From Cytophagaceae bacterium (lineage in GTDB: Bacteria; Bacteroidota; Bacteroidia; Cytophagales; Flexibacteraceae), in the NCBI GenBank assembly GCA_027487695.1, contig JAIYDB010000084.1, positions 1 through 42,425 on the forward strand: DNA of 42,425 bases, written 5' to 3'. Below are positions 13,319 to 19,711 of the stretch, one piece after another. Below the pieces are notes generated by a model. The model was not told the DNA's origin and did not search any database. It saw only the letters and a program-made list of their open reading frames with translations. The position numbers were made by a program, and so were the translations under genes. How positions within the stretch are numbered: the first letter of the stretch is position 1; every line of letters begins with the position of its first letter.

Positions 13319-14551
13319 TTAAATAAAGAACAAATAGGCTAACCAAATACCTGCTATTACCCCTACCAGATCTACAATCAAACCTACGCCTGCACTATAA
13401 CGGGTTCTTTTTACTTGAACACTGCCATAGTAAACCGCTAATACATAGAAGGTTGTTTCTGTACTGCCTTGTATAATACAAGCAGTTCTACCAGCAAAAC
13501 TATCGGCCCCTAAATTTTGCATTGTTTCAAGCATAAGACCTCTTGCACCACTACCGCTAAAGGGCTTTAATAAACCAGTGGGTAAGGCAGGGATAAATTG
13601 GATATCGCCACCTACAACCTCCACTACATAAGTAATCCCTTGTAGAATATAATCTAATGCTCCCGATGCTCTAAATACACCAATAGCTACTAGCATGGCA
13701 ATCAAATAAGGAATTATGCGCACTGCAGTGGTAAATCCTTCTTTGGCTCCATCTATAAAGGCATCGTAAACGCTTATTTTTGAGAGCATTGCCTTAATCA
13801 TAAACACTAGTAAAAATCCAAAAATCACTATTGAACCTGCCACTCTGGTTATGCTTTCAACAACTGATTGTTCCATTTGACTAAATGCCGTTGCCAACCA
13901 AACCAACAAACCAATAAATACAGAAAGCGTACCAATAACAGGAAAGCTTAACAGATTTAGTCTTTGCTTTAAACCAACGAGTATCATAGCTGTAAAGGCA
14001 GAAATAAAAGTTCCTAAAATAGAAGGTATCAATATATCTGCTGGGTTTGCGGCACCTGCTTGTAACCTATAAGCCATTATACTCACAGGTAACAAAGTAA
14101 GTCCTGCTGTATTTATAGCTGTGAACATGATCATTGCATTGGAAGCTATATCATGATTCGGGTTAATTTCCTGTAACTCCTTCATAGCCTTTAAACCAAT
14201 AGGCGTAGCTGCATTATCTAACCCTAACATATTGGCGGAAAAATTCATCAGTATAGTACCAAAGGCAGGATGGTCTTGCGGCACTTCAGGAAATAACTTA
14301 CTAAAAAAAGGAGCCGTTATTCTGGTTAGGAAGTTAATCATACCGCCCGCTTCGCCAATTTTCATAATGCCGAGCCAAAAGGTCATTAACCCTGCTGTAT
14401 TTAAACTTAACTCAAAACCGGTTTTGCTCATATCGAACAAGGCCGTTTGCATTGCTGGCAAAATGGTACTATCGCCTAAAAACACCCATTTTATAAGTGC
14501 CACAGCAATCGCAATAAAAAACAGAGCTAACCAAAGATAATTTAAAAGCAT
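13319..14551 (-). CDS. SpmA-SpmB fusion, nucleoside-recognition (Gate) domain membrane protein
   Basis: A 410-residue polytopic membrane protein. The N-terminal half (to about 200) matches spore maturation protein A (LSLNTAGLMTFWLGIMKIGE, NFSANMLGLDNAATPIGLKA). The C-terminal half matches SpmB (IPYLIAMLVAIGVFRASGAL, SGSGARGLMLETM, IIQGSTETTFYVLAVYYGSV). In Bacillus these are two proteins affecting spore-core dehydration. Fused copies in non-sporulating Bacteroidota have no established role, and transport of a small solute is a guess from the Gate domain. I chose the ATG at 14551, which gives the usual SpmA opening MLLNYLWLALFF. A TTG at 14578 would add nine residues. The gene lies 36 bases upstream of rpe on the same strand and is divergent from the OmpA-like gene. 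Confidence 0.85.
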   Translation of the reverse strand: MLLNYLWLALFFIAIAVALIKWVFLGDSTILPAMQTALFDMSKTGFELSLNTAGLMTFWLGIMKIGEAGGMINFLTRITAPFFSKLFPEVPQDHPAFGTILMNFSANMLGLDNAATPIGLKAMKELQEINPNHDIASNAMIMFTAINTAGLTLLPVSIMAYRLQAGAANPADILIPSILGTFISAFTAMILVGLKQRLNLLSFPVIGTLSVFIGLLVWLATAFSQMEQSVVESITRVAGSIVIFGFLLVFMIKAMLSKISVYDAFIDGAKEGFTTAVRIIPYLIAMLVAIGVFRASGALDYILQGITYVVEVVGGDIQFIPALPTGLLKPFSGSGARGLMLETMQNLGADSFAGRTACIIQGSTETTFYVLAVYYGSVQVKRTRYSAGVGLIVDLVGVIAGIWLAYLFFI

Positions 14552-14680
14552 TTCAAATTGACCATTTAAGAATGCCAAATTAGCTTTAAACTATATTTAT
14601 TAGGCATAGTATCTAAAAATCTTATTTACCTACTGTATATTGAAAGCTCAATTACACCTTTGCTTAACTTAAGCCTTACT

Positions 14681-16501
14681 ATGCGCTTATTTATATATCA
14701 ATGCATTCTATTGGTTACACTGCTCTCAAATGCGGTTGCCATTGCAAAAACCAACACTTTTAGTGGTTTAGGTGCTGCCATTAATACCCCAGAAAAGGAA
14801 ATATATCCAGTAGTAAATGGCAATACCGATCTTATTCTCTTTAGTAGGATATACAATAGAAATGGGGAAGTTTATACTGACCTACTTCTTTCAAGGAAAA
14901 ATATACAGTGGCAAGCCCCAATTGTAATTCCCATCCCTGCTACCATCAAAGGATTTAAAGGCTGCACTTACCTCAGTGAGAATGGTACCACCTTACTTTT
15001 CTTTACGGAAAACGCAGGAGTTCGGGAACTTTACCAAGCAACACTTTCTAATAACACGCTTACCAATATAGAAAAGTTCGATTCCAGAATTAATAGTAAG
15101 CTAGGCGAAGGAGCTTGGCTTTCTGCTAATGGCAATGTGCTATATTTTTCTGCTGCTAAAGATTTTAGCAAAGGAGGTACCGATATCTACAAGATTGAAA
15201 AAGCTAAAAATGGTAAATGGCGAAATGCAACTGAACTATCTGAACGTATCAATACTCAAGCAGATGAACAACACCCAATATTAATAAGTGATAAGCTTCT
15301 CTTCTTTACAAGAACTGAAAACAGCCAATCAGGCATTTATTTAAGCCATACTTTCGATGAATATAGAACAAAAGCAAAACCGGTATTATTTCCTGAAGCA
15401 AACGGACTTAAACTACTCATAATCAAACCGAATAACACATTAAGAAACGCTATTATTTGCGCCGAGGATGCCTTAGGAAATACTGATATATATGAGTCAA
15501 CCTTAACCGACGAACAACTTTCTACTAGCAATGCCCTAATTACAGGACACGTGCTCTTAGGTGAAAAAATGAAGGCAATCAACGCCAATGTTTCTGCTTG
15601 TGGTAATACAAAGGTATTTAAAAGTGCTAAAGAGAAAGGTGCATTTGTAATTAACGCAACGCCAGGACAAACAGAAAGATATGTAGTAGAAGCAGAAGGC
15701 TATGAAAAGGTTTCCTTTACCTTAAACATCCCTTATAATGTAGATTTTCAGGAGTATTACGTACAGGTACTAGTAGATAAAATTAACCTATATGGATCAG
15801 ACATTGGGCAAAGTGGCACAGTTAAAATTCTAGACCTTAATAAGGCAAATATGGAGAATGTATCGGTTGCTACGGCAAGCTCTAAGCTTTTTGAAACAGA
15901 TGCAGAGCGATACGAAAACCTTGAAGATGCTATCTATCAACTAGATAGTAACAAAAGAAAGTCTGCAGCCAATAATCTATTCTTTGAAAGTCCTTTAATG
16001 GTAAGTAATGAAGCTAAATCTGGCGTATTGAATCAGTTTAGCAATTGCTATTACGACTTAAAGAACTTAAACAACACTGTTTGCGGTGGTAAAGAGGTAC
16101 AGTTCAATGAATTAACCGAACCAGGTTTACCAAATTCAGGATTGCTTTCAGAAACCAGGTTGCTAAAGCCTGCATTTAAATTATCCTTTGCTCCAAATAG
16201 TTCTGAAATCAATCCAGCCCAACAAACCATTATTACCGATTTAGCAAAGCAATGTTTAGCAAAACCTGAAAATCGTTTAGTAATTTTAGTATTTAGCAAG
16301 CCAGATGCTAAAATTACTAAAGAACTACTTAGTAAAAGAGTTCAAGAATTACTAAATCTACTGAAAATCAACCAGTTACAATTTAGTAAAGTATGCTTTG
16401 CTAATACTAAAGATATTAGCTTTACTAAAATTACTAAAAATACCTCTACTAAAGATCAGGCAGATACCTTTGAAATAAGACTAGTTACCTTTAGGGAGTA
16501 A
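14681..16501 (+). CDS. Secreted PD40 beta-propeller protein with degenerate OmpA-like C-terminal domain
   Basis: A 606-residue exported protein. I chose the ATG at 14681, because it begins a clean signal peptide (MRLFIYQCILLVTLLSNAVA); a TTG at 14660 would add seven residues and overlaps the promoter-like CACCTTTG. Residues about 25-290 contain WD40-like PD40 propeller motifs (for example YFSAAKDFSKGGTDIYKI and LFFTRTENSQSGIYLSHTF). Then comes a carboxypeptidase-regulatory-like beta domain (about 290-370). The last 110 residues resemble OmpA (LSFAPNSSEINPAQQTIITD). The peptidoglycan-binding consensus is poorly kept: only a loose LLSKRVQ remains. PorE of the T9SS has PD40, regulatory and OmpA domains after TPRs, but no TPR part is seen here. 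Location is probably periplasm or outer membrane. The tail is rich in Thr-Lys and Ser-Lys pairs. Confidence 0.65.
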   Translation: MRLFIYQCILLVTLLSNAVAIAKTNTFSGLGAAINTPEKEIYPVVNGNTDLILFSRIYNRNGEVYTDLLLSRKNIQWQAPIVIPIPATIKGFKGCTYLSENGTTLLFFTENAGVRELYQATLSNNTLTNIEKFDSRINSKLGEGAWLSANGNVLYFSAAKDFSKGGTDIYKIEKAKNGKWRNATELSERINTQADEQHPILISDKLLFFTRTENSQSGIYLSHTFDEYRTKAKPVLFPEANGLKLLIIKPNNTLRNAIICAEDALGNTDIYESTLTDEQLSTSNALITGHVLLGEKMKAINANVSACGNTKVFKSAKEKGAFVINATPGQTERYVVEAEGYEKVSFTLNIPYNVDFQEYYVQVLVDKINLYGSDIGQSGTVKILDLNKANMENVSVATASSKLFETDAERYENLEDAIYQLDSNKRKSAANNLFFESPLMVSNEAKSGVLNQFSNCYYDLKNLNNTVCGGKEVQFNELTEPGLPNSGLLSETRLLKPAFKLSFAPNSSEINPAQQTIITDLAKQCLAKPENRLVILVFSKPDAKITKELLSKRVQELLNLLKINQLQFSKVCFANTKDISFTKITKNTSTKDQADTFEIRLVTFRE

Positions 16502-16627
16502 ATGGGTATTGGTTATTAGTTCCTGGTAAAAATTTATGGGTAATTGCTGCAGGATAGGCCTTAAAAGTGGCTTATGTCCTCTTCCATTGGGTATTCTAGT
16601 CTTCCCTGATAGATTTATAATCCTTGG

Positions 16628-16738
16628 AATGCCTTTACAGCAGCCGTAGAGCGTCTACAAGGCATTTGTAATTGCCTTGCTAAATGGTTAAGAAACTTCG
16701 TTTGTAGTGCCTACAAAGCTTGTATTTGCGCTAATACA
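16628..16738. other. Cluster of three hairpins, candidate structured RNA or regulatory DNA
   Basis: Three inverted repeats lie close together. AATGCCTT (16628-16635) pairs with AAGGCATT (16659-16666) around an inner GTAGA-gcg-TCTAC stem (16646-16658). TTTGTAG (16701-16707) pairs with CTACAAA (16711-16717) across a TGC loop. TGTATT (16721-16726) pairs with AATACA (16733-16738) across a six-base loop. Such density of short perfect stems suggests a folded transcript, but no known RNA family is recognised, and the strand cannot be decided because inverted repeats read alike on both strands. Confidence 0.25.
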
Positions 16739-16984
16739 CGAAATAACCTTTCTCTAGTCCCTGTAGAGTGGTTTAGATTAGATTTTTTACTGTATAAACC
16801 TTGTATATCACTCTTTATTGGCCAAGTAATTCTGGTTCTTCCTTTAACCTTCATCAGGCATTTAACGAATCGGTAACTGTTCTTGTAACCTCCTGATTTA
16901 CAAAATGTAAGTTTTACTTAATAATTACACTAAATAAAATTTATTTGTTAACTCATTGAAAATAAACAATTTATACATACTATG

Positions 16985-17026
16985 GCTAACTAAATACAGG
17001 GTTTAGTACTTTAGTTAGCACTTTTT
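16985..17026 (+). terminator. Hairpin plus T-tract, terminator-like, in gene-free region
   Basis: GCTAACTAAA (16985-16994) and TTTAGTTAGC (17010-17019) form a perfect 10-bp stem. TAC/GTA can extend it by three pairs past a single bulged C. The right arm is followed on the plus strand by ACTTTTTC (T-tract 17022-17026). It stands 480 bases after the OmpA-like gene, far for a normal terminator of that gene, so it may end a separate small transcript. Confidence 0.45.
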
Positions 17027-17431
17027 CATTGCTTTTTAGGAATAAATACCAATACATTAGCGTTAGTAAAGTACAACCAAGAGCCAATGATCTAGCTAAA
17101 TCGCTGAAATTTTCAGCTAAAATTGCTCGCTGAACGTGGATTAAAATTACTTCAATTGGGTTCCTGAAATCAGGTATTTCACTTCAAGTAAATCCATTTT
17201 TTTATTAAGTACCTTACTATGAGCAAATAAGCCATTGCTAAATAAAGTTAAGGTTTTTTAAAGTGTACTTAAATAACTGTATGTAAGTTACTTAATATTT
17301 AACTATCAATCCTGACGAAAATCTTGACACTAAGAAGACCTTTACTTGAAGTTCAATGAAATACTAAATAGGTAATGTTTTCATTTTTAATTAGTTGGAG
17401 ATTAAATTTTACCTAAAATATTTACTTTAAG

Positions 17432-17492
17432 CTGAACTTAATTATGTCCAAATTCTAATATTAAATTGGACATATAGCCGAAACATGTTCAG
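17432..17492. repeat. Nested inverted repeats upstream of echA
   Basis: CTGAAC (17432-17437) and GTTCAG (17487-17492) flank an inner pair, ATGTCCAA (17444-17451) and TTGGACAT (17466-17473). The arms are 6 and 8 bp, the inner loop is 14 bases, and the spacers are 6 and 13 bases. The inner 8-bp dyad could be an operator or part of a folded leader. It lies about 150 bases upstream of the echA start. Confidence 0.35.
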
Positions 17493-17625
17493 TTTTCCTC
17501 ATTCTTAGTTTATCTAGTTAGCAGCAGGTCCTAACTTTCAGCTTTGATTTTTTGACTTAGTATTCCGCTAAAATTTTCGGCACTTCCCTACTCTTTTGTA
17601 CTTTGCAGGCAAACACCAAACTTGT

Positions 17626-18402
17626 ATGCCTGAACTAATCATAGTAACTCCTGAAAAGCAACCTGGCGTTGCAACCATTCAGCTAAACCGTCCTAAAGAA
17701 CTAAACGCACTAAACCTGCAATTGATGGGTGAGTTGCGCGATGCATTAGTAGAATTAGATGCTAATACTAATGTGCGTTGTATTGTAATTCACGGCAACC
17801 AACGTGCCTTTGCGGCAGGTGCTGATATCAAACAGATGGCTGATAAAACCGCTATCGACATGCTGATGATTGATCAGTTTAGCACTTGGGATAGAATTAG
17901 AAAAACCCGCAAGCCAATTATTGCAGCAGTTTCTGGATTTGCTTTAGGTGGTGGTTGCGAGTTAGCAATGACCTGCGATATGATTATTGCTAGTGAAAGC
18001 GCACAGTTTGGTCAGCCTGAAATTAAGATTGGGGTTATGCCTGGGGCAGGCGGTACCCAACGTTTAACTCGTGCCATAGGCAAGGCTAAAGCGATGGAAA
18101 TGGTACTCACTGGTAAGTTTATTTCTGCAGTTGAGGCAGAGCGTTACGGCCTTGTAAACCGTGTTGTTGCCGATGAAATTTATCTGGACGAGGCTATGAA
18201 ATTGGCAGCCACTATTGCCACAATGAGTCCTGTAGCGGTAATGCTGGCTAAGGAATCGGTTAATAGAACTTATGAAACTTTCCTTGATGAAGGTCTGCAT
18301 TTTGAAAGAAAGAACTTCTATTTAACCTTTGCTTCTGAAGACCAAAAAGAAGGCATGGCTGCCTTTGTTGAAAAAAGAGCTCCTGTGTTTACAGGAAAAT
18401 AA
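17626..18402 (+). CDS. Enoyl-CoA hydratase/isomerase (crotonase family)
   Basis: A 258-residue crotonase-fold enzyme that hydrates 2-enoyl-CoA to 3-hydroxyacyl-CoA in fatty-acid or amino-acid degradation. The oxyanion-hole and acyl-CoA motif is AAGADIKQM. Both catalytic glutamates of true hydratases are present: E112 in ALGGGCELAMTCD and E132 in GQPEIKIG, 20 apart as in mammalian crotonase. I start at the ATG at 17626 (MPELIIVTPEKQPG), which matches the family length; a TTG at 17596 would add ten residues and lies inside a promoter-like TTTTGTACTTTG. tyrS follows after 25 bases. The only other beta-oxidation-type enzyme in the window is the thiolase at 33240-34415. Confidence 0.92.
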   Translation: MPELIIVTPEKQPGVATIQLNRPKELNALNLQLMGELRDALVELDANTNVRCIVIHGNQRAFAAGADIKQMADKTAIDMLMIDQFSTWDRIRKTRKPIIAAVSGFALGGGCELAMTCDMIIASESAQFGQPEIKIGVMPGAGGTQRLTRAIGKAKAMEMVLTGKFISAVEAERYGLVNRVVADEIYLDEAMKLAATIATMSPVAVMLAKESVNRTYETFLDEGLHFERKNFYLTFASEDQKEGMAAFVEKRAPVFTGK

Positions 18403-18427: not shown

Positions 18428-19711
18428 ATGAGTACCTTCATAGAAGAATTACGCTGGCGTGGAATGCTAAACGATGCTATGCCAGGCAGCGAAGAGAAGC
18501 TAAATACGAGCATGCAAAGTGCTTATATTGGCTTTGATCCTACTGCAAAATCGTTGCACATTGGTAACCTTGCCACCATTATGTTGCTTGTTTATTGGCA
18601 ACGCGATGGTCATAAGCCGTATGCCCTAGTAGGAGGAGCAACTGGTATGGTGGGCGACCCAACTGGCAAAGCAGCCGAGCGTAAATTATTAGATGAAGAA
18701 ACCCTTGCCCAAAATGTAGCGGGCATTAGAAAGCAACTAGCCCATTTCTTAGATTTTGATGGCGGTGCTAATAGTGCTGAATTAGTAAACAACTTAGATT
18801 GGTTCAAAGGTTGGGGCTACCTAGATTTCTTAAGGGAGGTAGGCAAACACTTTTCAATCAATTATATGATTGCTAAGGATAGCGTAAAAAACCGTCTAGA
18901 AACGGGTATGAGCTATACCGAATTCAGCTACCAGCTTTTGCAGGCTTATGATTTTTACCACCTTTGGAAGAACAACGGCATCAATTTTCAGATGGGTGCC
19001 AGCGACCAATGGGGTAATATCACGGGTGGCACGGAGCTTATACGCCGTATGGCAAGTGGCGAAGCCTACGCCATTACCGGTAATCTTTTATTGAAAGCTG
19101 ATGGTACCAAGTTTGGCAAGAGTGAAAGTGGTAATGTTTGGTTAGACCCAGAGTTAACCTCGCCGTATAAGTTTTATCAGTTCCTTTTGAATTGTGCCGA
19201 TGAAGAAGCCTTTAAAATGGTGCGTATTTTCTGTGTACGCCCACACGAGGAAATAGAAGAATTAGAGGCAAAGCATATTGCAGAACCGCACCTACGCATT
19301 TTACAAAAAGCAGTTGCAGAAGATTTAACCTTGCGCGTTCACGGTGCTGAGGAATTGAAGCGTGCCCAACAAGCTACAGATATTCTATTCGGAAAAGACA
19401 GTACCGAGGCAATTAAGGCTTTAGACGAAAAACTATTGCTTCAAGCTTTTGAAGGGGTGCCTGCTAAAACTTTACTAATGTCTGATTTGGACCAGGATTT
19501 AGTAACCTTATTAGGAGCAACTACCGAAGGCATTGTTTTCCCAAGTAAAGGTGAAGCACGCAAAGGAATTCAGGCAGGTAGTATCACCATCAATGGAGAA
19601 AAAGCTACTTCTATTGAAGCTAAAGCAGCCGATTTTGGATTGTTGCAAGAAAAGTACCTATTGATTAGAAAAGGAAAGAAAAACTATATCCTCCTTACTT
19701 TCGAGAATTAG
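18428..19711 (+). CDS. tyrS: Tyrosyl-tRNA synthetase
   Basis: A 427-residue class Ic aminoacyl-tRNA synthetase that charges tRNA-Tyr. The HIGH-type motif is LHIGN (H44-N47) and the KMSKS-type loop is KFGKS (K228-S232). MGASDQWGNITGGTELIRR is the typical tyrosine-site region. A C-terminal S4-like RNA-binding domain (about 360-427: GEARKGIQAGSITINGEKAT) completes it. Length matches the bacterial TyrRS standard of about 420-430. It is 25 bases behind echA and ends tail-to-tail with the nuclease gene, their 3' ends overlapping by 17 bases. Confidence 0.97.
   Translation: MSTFIEELRWRGMLNDAMPGSEEKLNTSMQSAYIGFDPTAKSLHIGNLATIMLLVYWQRDGHKPYALVGGATGMVGDPTGKAAERKLLDEETLAQNVAGIRKQLAHFLDFDGGANSAELVNNLDWFKGWGYLDFLREVGKHFSINYMIAKDSVKNRLETGMSYTEFSYQLLQAYDFYHLWKNNGINFQMGASDQWGNITGGTELIRRMASGEAYAITGNLLLKADGTKFGKSESGNVWLDPELTSPYKFYQFLLNCADEEAFKMVRIFCVRPHEEIEELEAKHIAEPHLRILQKAVAEDLTLRVHGAEELKRAQQATDILFGKDSTEAIKALDEKLLLQAFEGVPAKTLLMSDLDQDLVTLLGATTEGIVFPSKGEARKGIQAGSITINGEKATSIEAKAADFGLLQEKYLLIRKGKKNYILLTFEN

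Follow-up and report, generated by a model that had tools for sequence, protein, structure and literature searches.

The gene-free gap and its setting

The window, by which we mean the whole 42,425-nucleotide stretch of Cytophagaceae DNA analysed here, contains a long gap without genes between an upstream gene and a pair encoding enoyl-CoA hydratase (ech) and tyrosyl-tRNA synthetase (tyrS), and this gap carries a predicted intrinsic terminator and, closer to ech, a predicted operator of the kind found at SoFic-type fic genes (Table 1). A preliminary description of the sequence had singled out the gap as exceeding 1 kb where most gaps are short. None of 208 inter-ORF gaps, whose median length is 67.5 bp, is longer, and it alone (1 of 208) reaches 1,000 bp, as counted with a simple ORF caller over 282,826 bases comprising the window and 20 further stretches of the same assembly.

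Table 1. Features of the gap and its flanking genes (window coordinates)
Feature	Position	Strand	Remarks
Upstream gene	14660-16501	+	613 codons, without a Pfam match; nearest homologues 26-31% identical
Gene-free gap	16502-17625		1,124 bp, 25-39% G+C
Inverted repeats ("three hairpins")	16628-16738		folding within chance
Intrinsic terminator (predicted)	16985-17026	+	10-bp perfect stem (and 3 bp more beyond a bulged C), 8-nt loop, ACTTTTT tail
Orphan SoFic-type operator (predicted)	17445-17491		TGTCCA-N16-TGGACA-N13-TGTTCA
Half-site TGTCCA, inverted	17445-17450	-	
Half-site TGGACA, direct	17467-17472	+	
Half-site TGTTCA, inverted	17486-17491	-	makes canonical N13 dyad 17467-17491
Enoyl-CoA hydratase gene (ech)	17626-18402	+	ATG at 17626; start 134 bp beyond the operator
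Tyrosyl-tRNA synthetase gene (tyrS)	18428-19711	+	25 bp 3' of ech

The preliminary description had also seen no plausible reading frame in the gap, and had named an overlooked conserved frame among the findings that would count against it; we looked for one by stop-free runs and by Pfam and found none. The longest stop-free run, 87 codons, is within the range of chance, being equalled in 11% of shuffled sequences. Seven fragments of the gap yielded one Pfam match, which we treat as chance (E 0.056; 13.5 bits, the cut-off being 25), and none at the curated cut-off, and the six full frames, translated with X at stops, yielded zero matches at E 1. A missed coding gene is ruled out by these results. 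Known RNAs and tRNAs are ruled out in the same manner: Rfam 15 gave no match reaching the gathering threshold anywhere in the window, a relaxed threshold gave only two matches (E 0.5 and 0.9), both at chance level, and ARAGORN found no tRNA. The gap is real and it is non-coding.

Relatives of the gap were sought in 59 genomes, its own included, and outside its own genome only two short matches came to light. The ech-tyrS pair is also present in two family members (genomes G004 and G007), where another gene begins about 220 bp 5' of ech, so that these two genomes lack a conserved counterpart of the gap. Among 80 ech loci drawn from a contig scan, the most similar ech genes of named genomes belong to Pontibacter (80-83% identical), a similarity that would place the organism probably near Cytophagales, and the DNA of the retrieved ech loci holds no match to the gap. 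Neither search thus yielded a sequence alignable with the gap in which compensatory changes could show.

Folding potential

The gap had been described as packed with hairpins, a claim that we do not uphold. Scanned in 44 segments on two strands with 60 shuffles each, the gap as a whole displays no excess of structure over its AT-rich background. The three consecutive hairpins at its upstream end are present as inverted repeats, but their folding is not unusual (z -1.0 to -1.5 against shuffles when each is folded singly; -1.28 on the plus strand and -1.02 on the minus strand for the block 16620-16745). We reject a structured RNA at this place because neither the block nor the single hairpins are more stable than shuffled sequence.

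Two other segments of the scan stand out: 17100-17219 (z -3.9, plus strand), which we treat as one result among many tests, and 17370-17489 (z -3.3, minus strand), which covers the operator palindrome. A perfect 7-bp palindrome, GCTGAAATTTTCAGC, lies in the gap at 17102-17116. Elsewhere in the window, the strongest fold among 177 background segments (1681-1800, z -7.0) is terminator-like on both strands and sits inside the ORF 1617-2366, the start of which may be wrong, and a further strong fold (14401-14520, z -4.4) lies near the 5' end of the minus-strand ORF 13319-14578.

A predicted terminator, probably of the upstream gene

The 10-bp stem followed by five T that had been noted in the middle of the gap is confirmed. 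Its arms (16985-16994 and 17010-17019) pair perfectly and are followed by ACTTTTT, and the stem-loop 16985-17019 folds with -13.3 kcal/mol (z -3.7 against shuffles), which together make the stable stem-loop and T-run of an intrinsic terminator. It resembles other intrinsic (rho-independent) terminators in its perfect stem, short loop and T-run, and differs from them in beginning 484 bp after the upstream stop codon and in being A+T-rich, with G-C in 3 of 10 pairs. A terminator scan with a loop limit of 8 did not list this stem; a looser definition asked for a perfect stem of at least 8, a loop of at most 16 and five T. By this definition the 134 sampled gaps contain 61 stem-plus-T signals, whereas shuffling leaves 2.8 ± 1.7, and intrinsic terminators are thus clearly in use in this genome; shuffles of the gap alone contain one such signal in about 10% of cases.

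Transcription of the upstream 613-codon gene most likely stops at this predicted terminator, whose placement calls for no more than a long 3' end on that transcript. The preliminary description had preferred to see in it the end of a separate transcript; the terminator is plausible in view of the signals in the sampled gaps, but the separate RNA is unsupported, rather than refuted. In favour of a non-coding RNA encoded in the gap and ending at 17026 is the distance of 525 nt between the last stop codon and the end of the T-run. Against this we set the lack of any Rfam match above the gathering threshold, the unremarkable fold of 16620-16745, the number of promoter-like sites in the gap (14 found, 13.2 expected) and the near-absence of homologues in the genomes searched. 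Bacteroidota promoters follow the consensus TTG-N17-21-TAnnTTTG, and the gap contains none of this type. We call such an RNA unsupported because there is no Rfam match, no excess of promoters, no Bacteroidota-type promoter and no conserved relative, and we judge its existence improbable.

An operator-like element and its counterpart beside a SoFic gene

Nested inverted repeats at 17432-17492, also part of the earlier account, are present (inner arm z -3.4), and their appearance is that of an operator acting as DNA, not of a structured RNA. When the gap was compared by blastn with its own genome, the sole strong second match was an array beside fic and mutS on contig C2, to which positions 17443-17493 are 80% identical over 51 bp (E 1.2e-4) and 90% identical over 31 bp. 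In the 2.89-Mb genome, the window and the C2 array are the sole places with TGTCCAA-N-TTGRACA pairs; a looser pair pattern allowing 1 mismatch gave 18 matches against 13 for its control and is uninformative genome-wide.

The C2 array consists of 4.5 tandem copies of 70 bp and separates mutS from a divergently transcribed fic gene. The product of this fic gene has Pfam Fic_N, Fic and SoFic-like_C domains, matches the PADLOC SoFic model (PDLC03963, E 1.4e-97) and matches solved SoFic chains in the PDB (3EQX, 3ZCN and 9TCH; further SoFic entries are 9TB0, 9TC4 and 9TCL), and so is a SoFic anti-phage protein by both profile and solved relatives. The array (locus L002, 1380-1745) fills the divergent fic/mutS intergenic region and may affect mutS too.

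A half-site grammar shared by close SoFic homologues

A class-wide search found a SoFic homologue at E 1e-90 or better in 31 of 345 genomes, and 30 of the loci were used further. Eighteen homologues with an identity of 55% or more (that of the window's genome included) carry 3-17 TGRACA/TGTYCA words in the 350 bp upstream of the start codon, a mean of 6.6 half-sites against 0.44 per 350 bp elsewhere in the same loci; this mean is inflated by the 17 half-sites of the C2 array and is 5.9 without them. Upstream of the 12 more distant SoFic genes the corresponding numbers are 0.67 and 0.33. We defined the operator class from the 17 upstream regions of other genomes, in which the spacing of half-sites (up to 40 bp) is strict: direct-to-inverted spacers are 13 in 28 of 28 cases, and inverted-to-direct spacers are 15 (15 cases), 16 (12) or 5 (2).

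The residues SRTT, which we take to mark the start of the recognition helix in SoFic, are present in 18 of 18 close homologues and 0 of the 12 distant ones, whose upstream repeats, read by eye, are built from other words. It is mainly from this agreement between recognition helix and half-site word that we infer SoFic itself to be the predicted binder of the array. The window's own genome encodes a second SoFic gene (locus L255, contig C114) with an SRLT helix, and upstream of it stands a repeat word, CTATAAGTA / ACTTATAG, that differs from the C2 type.

Stricter dyads number 16 in 18 genomes, with 13 beside fic and 2 for the reversed control; those away from fic are in the window, in G283 (inside an open frame) and in G087. 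Pair matches in G025, G002 and G023 (4 sites) lie within open frames, and we discounted them as accidental. Across the 345 genomes, the full pattern of three half-sites matched 39 times (23 with spacer 15 and 16 with spacer 16), the reversed control pattern 0 times at either spacer, and for 32 of the 39 matches a gene for a close SoFic homologue (broken in one case, G059) is found no more than 1.5 kb away.

The window element has three TGRACA/TGTYCA words alternating in orientation, spacers of 13 and 16 that both belong to the class, all 18 defined half-site letters intact, and a cognate SoFic with the SRTT helix encoded in the same genome on contig C2. There is no fic gene in or near the gap; the element is therefore an orphan site resembling an operator, and not a fic promoter. 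From these features we predict, with good though not full confidence, that it is a SoFic operator. That the element serves a different regulator, or resembles the pattern by accident, is a much less credible explanation: in its favour is G146, whose pattern match (1 of 39) sits among G+C-rich open frames and probably arose by chance, whereas the reversed pattern is missing from all 345 genomes and the window copy shares 51 bp of similarity with the C2 array.

Orphan sites in other genomes

Apart from the window, pattern matches without fic in the locus occur in G109, G180, G356, G119 and G146 (6 of 39 with the window), and 1 of 39, in G333, lies near a different Fic gene. The SoFic model detects in G109 and G333 a SoFic whose C-terminus is of another type, in G119 and G146 weaker Fic matches only, and in G180 and G356 nothing; G109 is 72% and G356 57% complete, so in these two the cognate SoFic may simply be missing from the assembly. 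Orphan sites elsewhere thus occur mostly where a cognate SoFic was not found.

Several of these loci have features of their own. The complete genome G119, which has no SRTT-type SoFic, carries five half-sites with spacers of 5, 13, 16 and 12 ahead of an mfd-like gene (locus L247, 1490-1565). The SoFic gene of G059 (locus L257) is split into two frames, and the operator upstream of it is intact. In G333 (locus L239, about 1380-1620) the operator, upstream of the different Fic gene, sits between what appear by eye to be two near-identical integrase-like gene tails.

Possible origins: scar of a lost fic gene, or operator kept in use

We hypothesize that an anti-phage AMPylator, a Fic protein of the SoFic type, would bind 17445-17491 through its C-terminal winged helix, and that at fic genes each TGRACA-N13-TGTYCA dyad would be occupied by a Fic dimer, which would thereby repress its own promoter. 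In our leading interpretation, a fic gene would once have stood at the gap and been lost through the turnover of defence genes, leaving its operator behind. The gap itself would be ordinary non-coding spacer with two independent signals, the predicted terminator of the upstream gene and the putative orphan operator. We regard the chances for and against this interpretation as about even. It is favoured by the intergenic orphans without an SRTT-type SoFic (G109, G180, G356 and G119), by the broken fic with an intact operator in G059, by the position of the G333 operator between integrase-like tails (by eye), and by the size of the gap, which is about that of a gene.

Other observations speak against it. 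The 18 of 18 intact half-site letters fit poorly with long neutral decay, fic is absent from 84 of the 84 ech loci examined, and the incomplete genomes G109 and G356 may owe their apparent lack of a cognate SoFic to missing sequence. A decayed fic within the gap was sought and rejected: tblastn with one protein scored no higher than with shuffled proteins, a profile of 18 SoFic proteins scored below zero, and tblastn with those 18 found nothing. The suggestion in the preliminary description that the gap holds the remains of a lost gene is thus half sustained, in that a fic-type operator is present but a fic coding remnant is not.

The SoFic encoded on contig C2 can probably still bind the window operator, and in a rival interpretation it would do so in trans and control ech-tyrS, 134 bp downstream. 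This would account for the survival of all 18 letters and both canonical spacings where no fic remnant survives, it draws on a cognate SoFic encoded in the same genome, and it has a parallel in the complete genome G119, whose orphan site of five half-sites precedes an mfd-like gene. It is weakened by the lack of a recognisable promoter next to the site, by the ech loci of G004 and G007, which include ech-tyrS and in which blastn detects nothing similar, and by G119, G180 and G356, in which the SoFic model finds no cognate, so that sites can persist without one. We consider a kept operator possible, if less than likely; the scar of a lost fic gene is the more likely of the two, though not by much.

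Implications for SoFic proteins

Regulation of this type has a precedent in CccR, a Fic protein with a winged helix-turn-helix from Yersinia pseudotuberculosis, which represses its own expression (PMC9755527) and binds palindromes in its own promoter (PMC10628234), according to the portions of these papers available to us. The shared theme is a Fic protein with a C-terminal winged helix and palindromes in its own promoter (PMC9755527, PMC10628234); here the protein is SoFic, the half-sites form arrays with fixed spacers of 13 and 15/16, the window copy is remote from fic, and binding is predicted. In the accessible part of PMC10628234, DNA binding by SoFic is given as undemonstrated as of 2023. 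The corresponding parts of two further papers describe toxicity and inhibition and no operator (PMC12249575, PMC3667792); the former also treats an antitoxin, and the latter does not mention DNA binding. Among titles and abstract openings retrieved for SoFic, Fic, promoter and operator, a set consisting of openly available papers other than preprints, none describes the half-site array.

SoFic is a widespread anti-phage toxin with a winged helix for which the text available to us reports no DNA target, and the half-site grammar, together with its match to the recognition helix, predicts for many species what that target is, in a form open to direct testing. We speculate, with considerable doubt, that SoFic, besides being an autorepressed defence enzyme, might act as a trans-acting regulator beyond its own gene, tying ech-tyrS, and mutS via the shared array, to the state of the AMPylator. 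Its DNA specificity would reside in one recognition helix, and from one SoFic lineage to another helix and half-site word would change together. More generally, the orphan sites would either mark defence genes that have been lost or point to a wider SoFic regulon.
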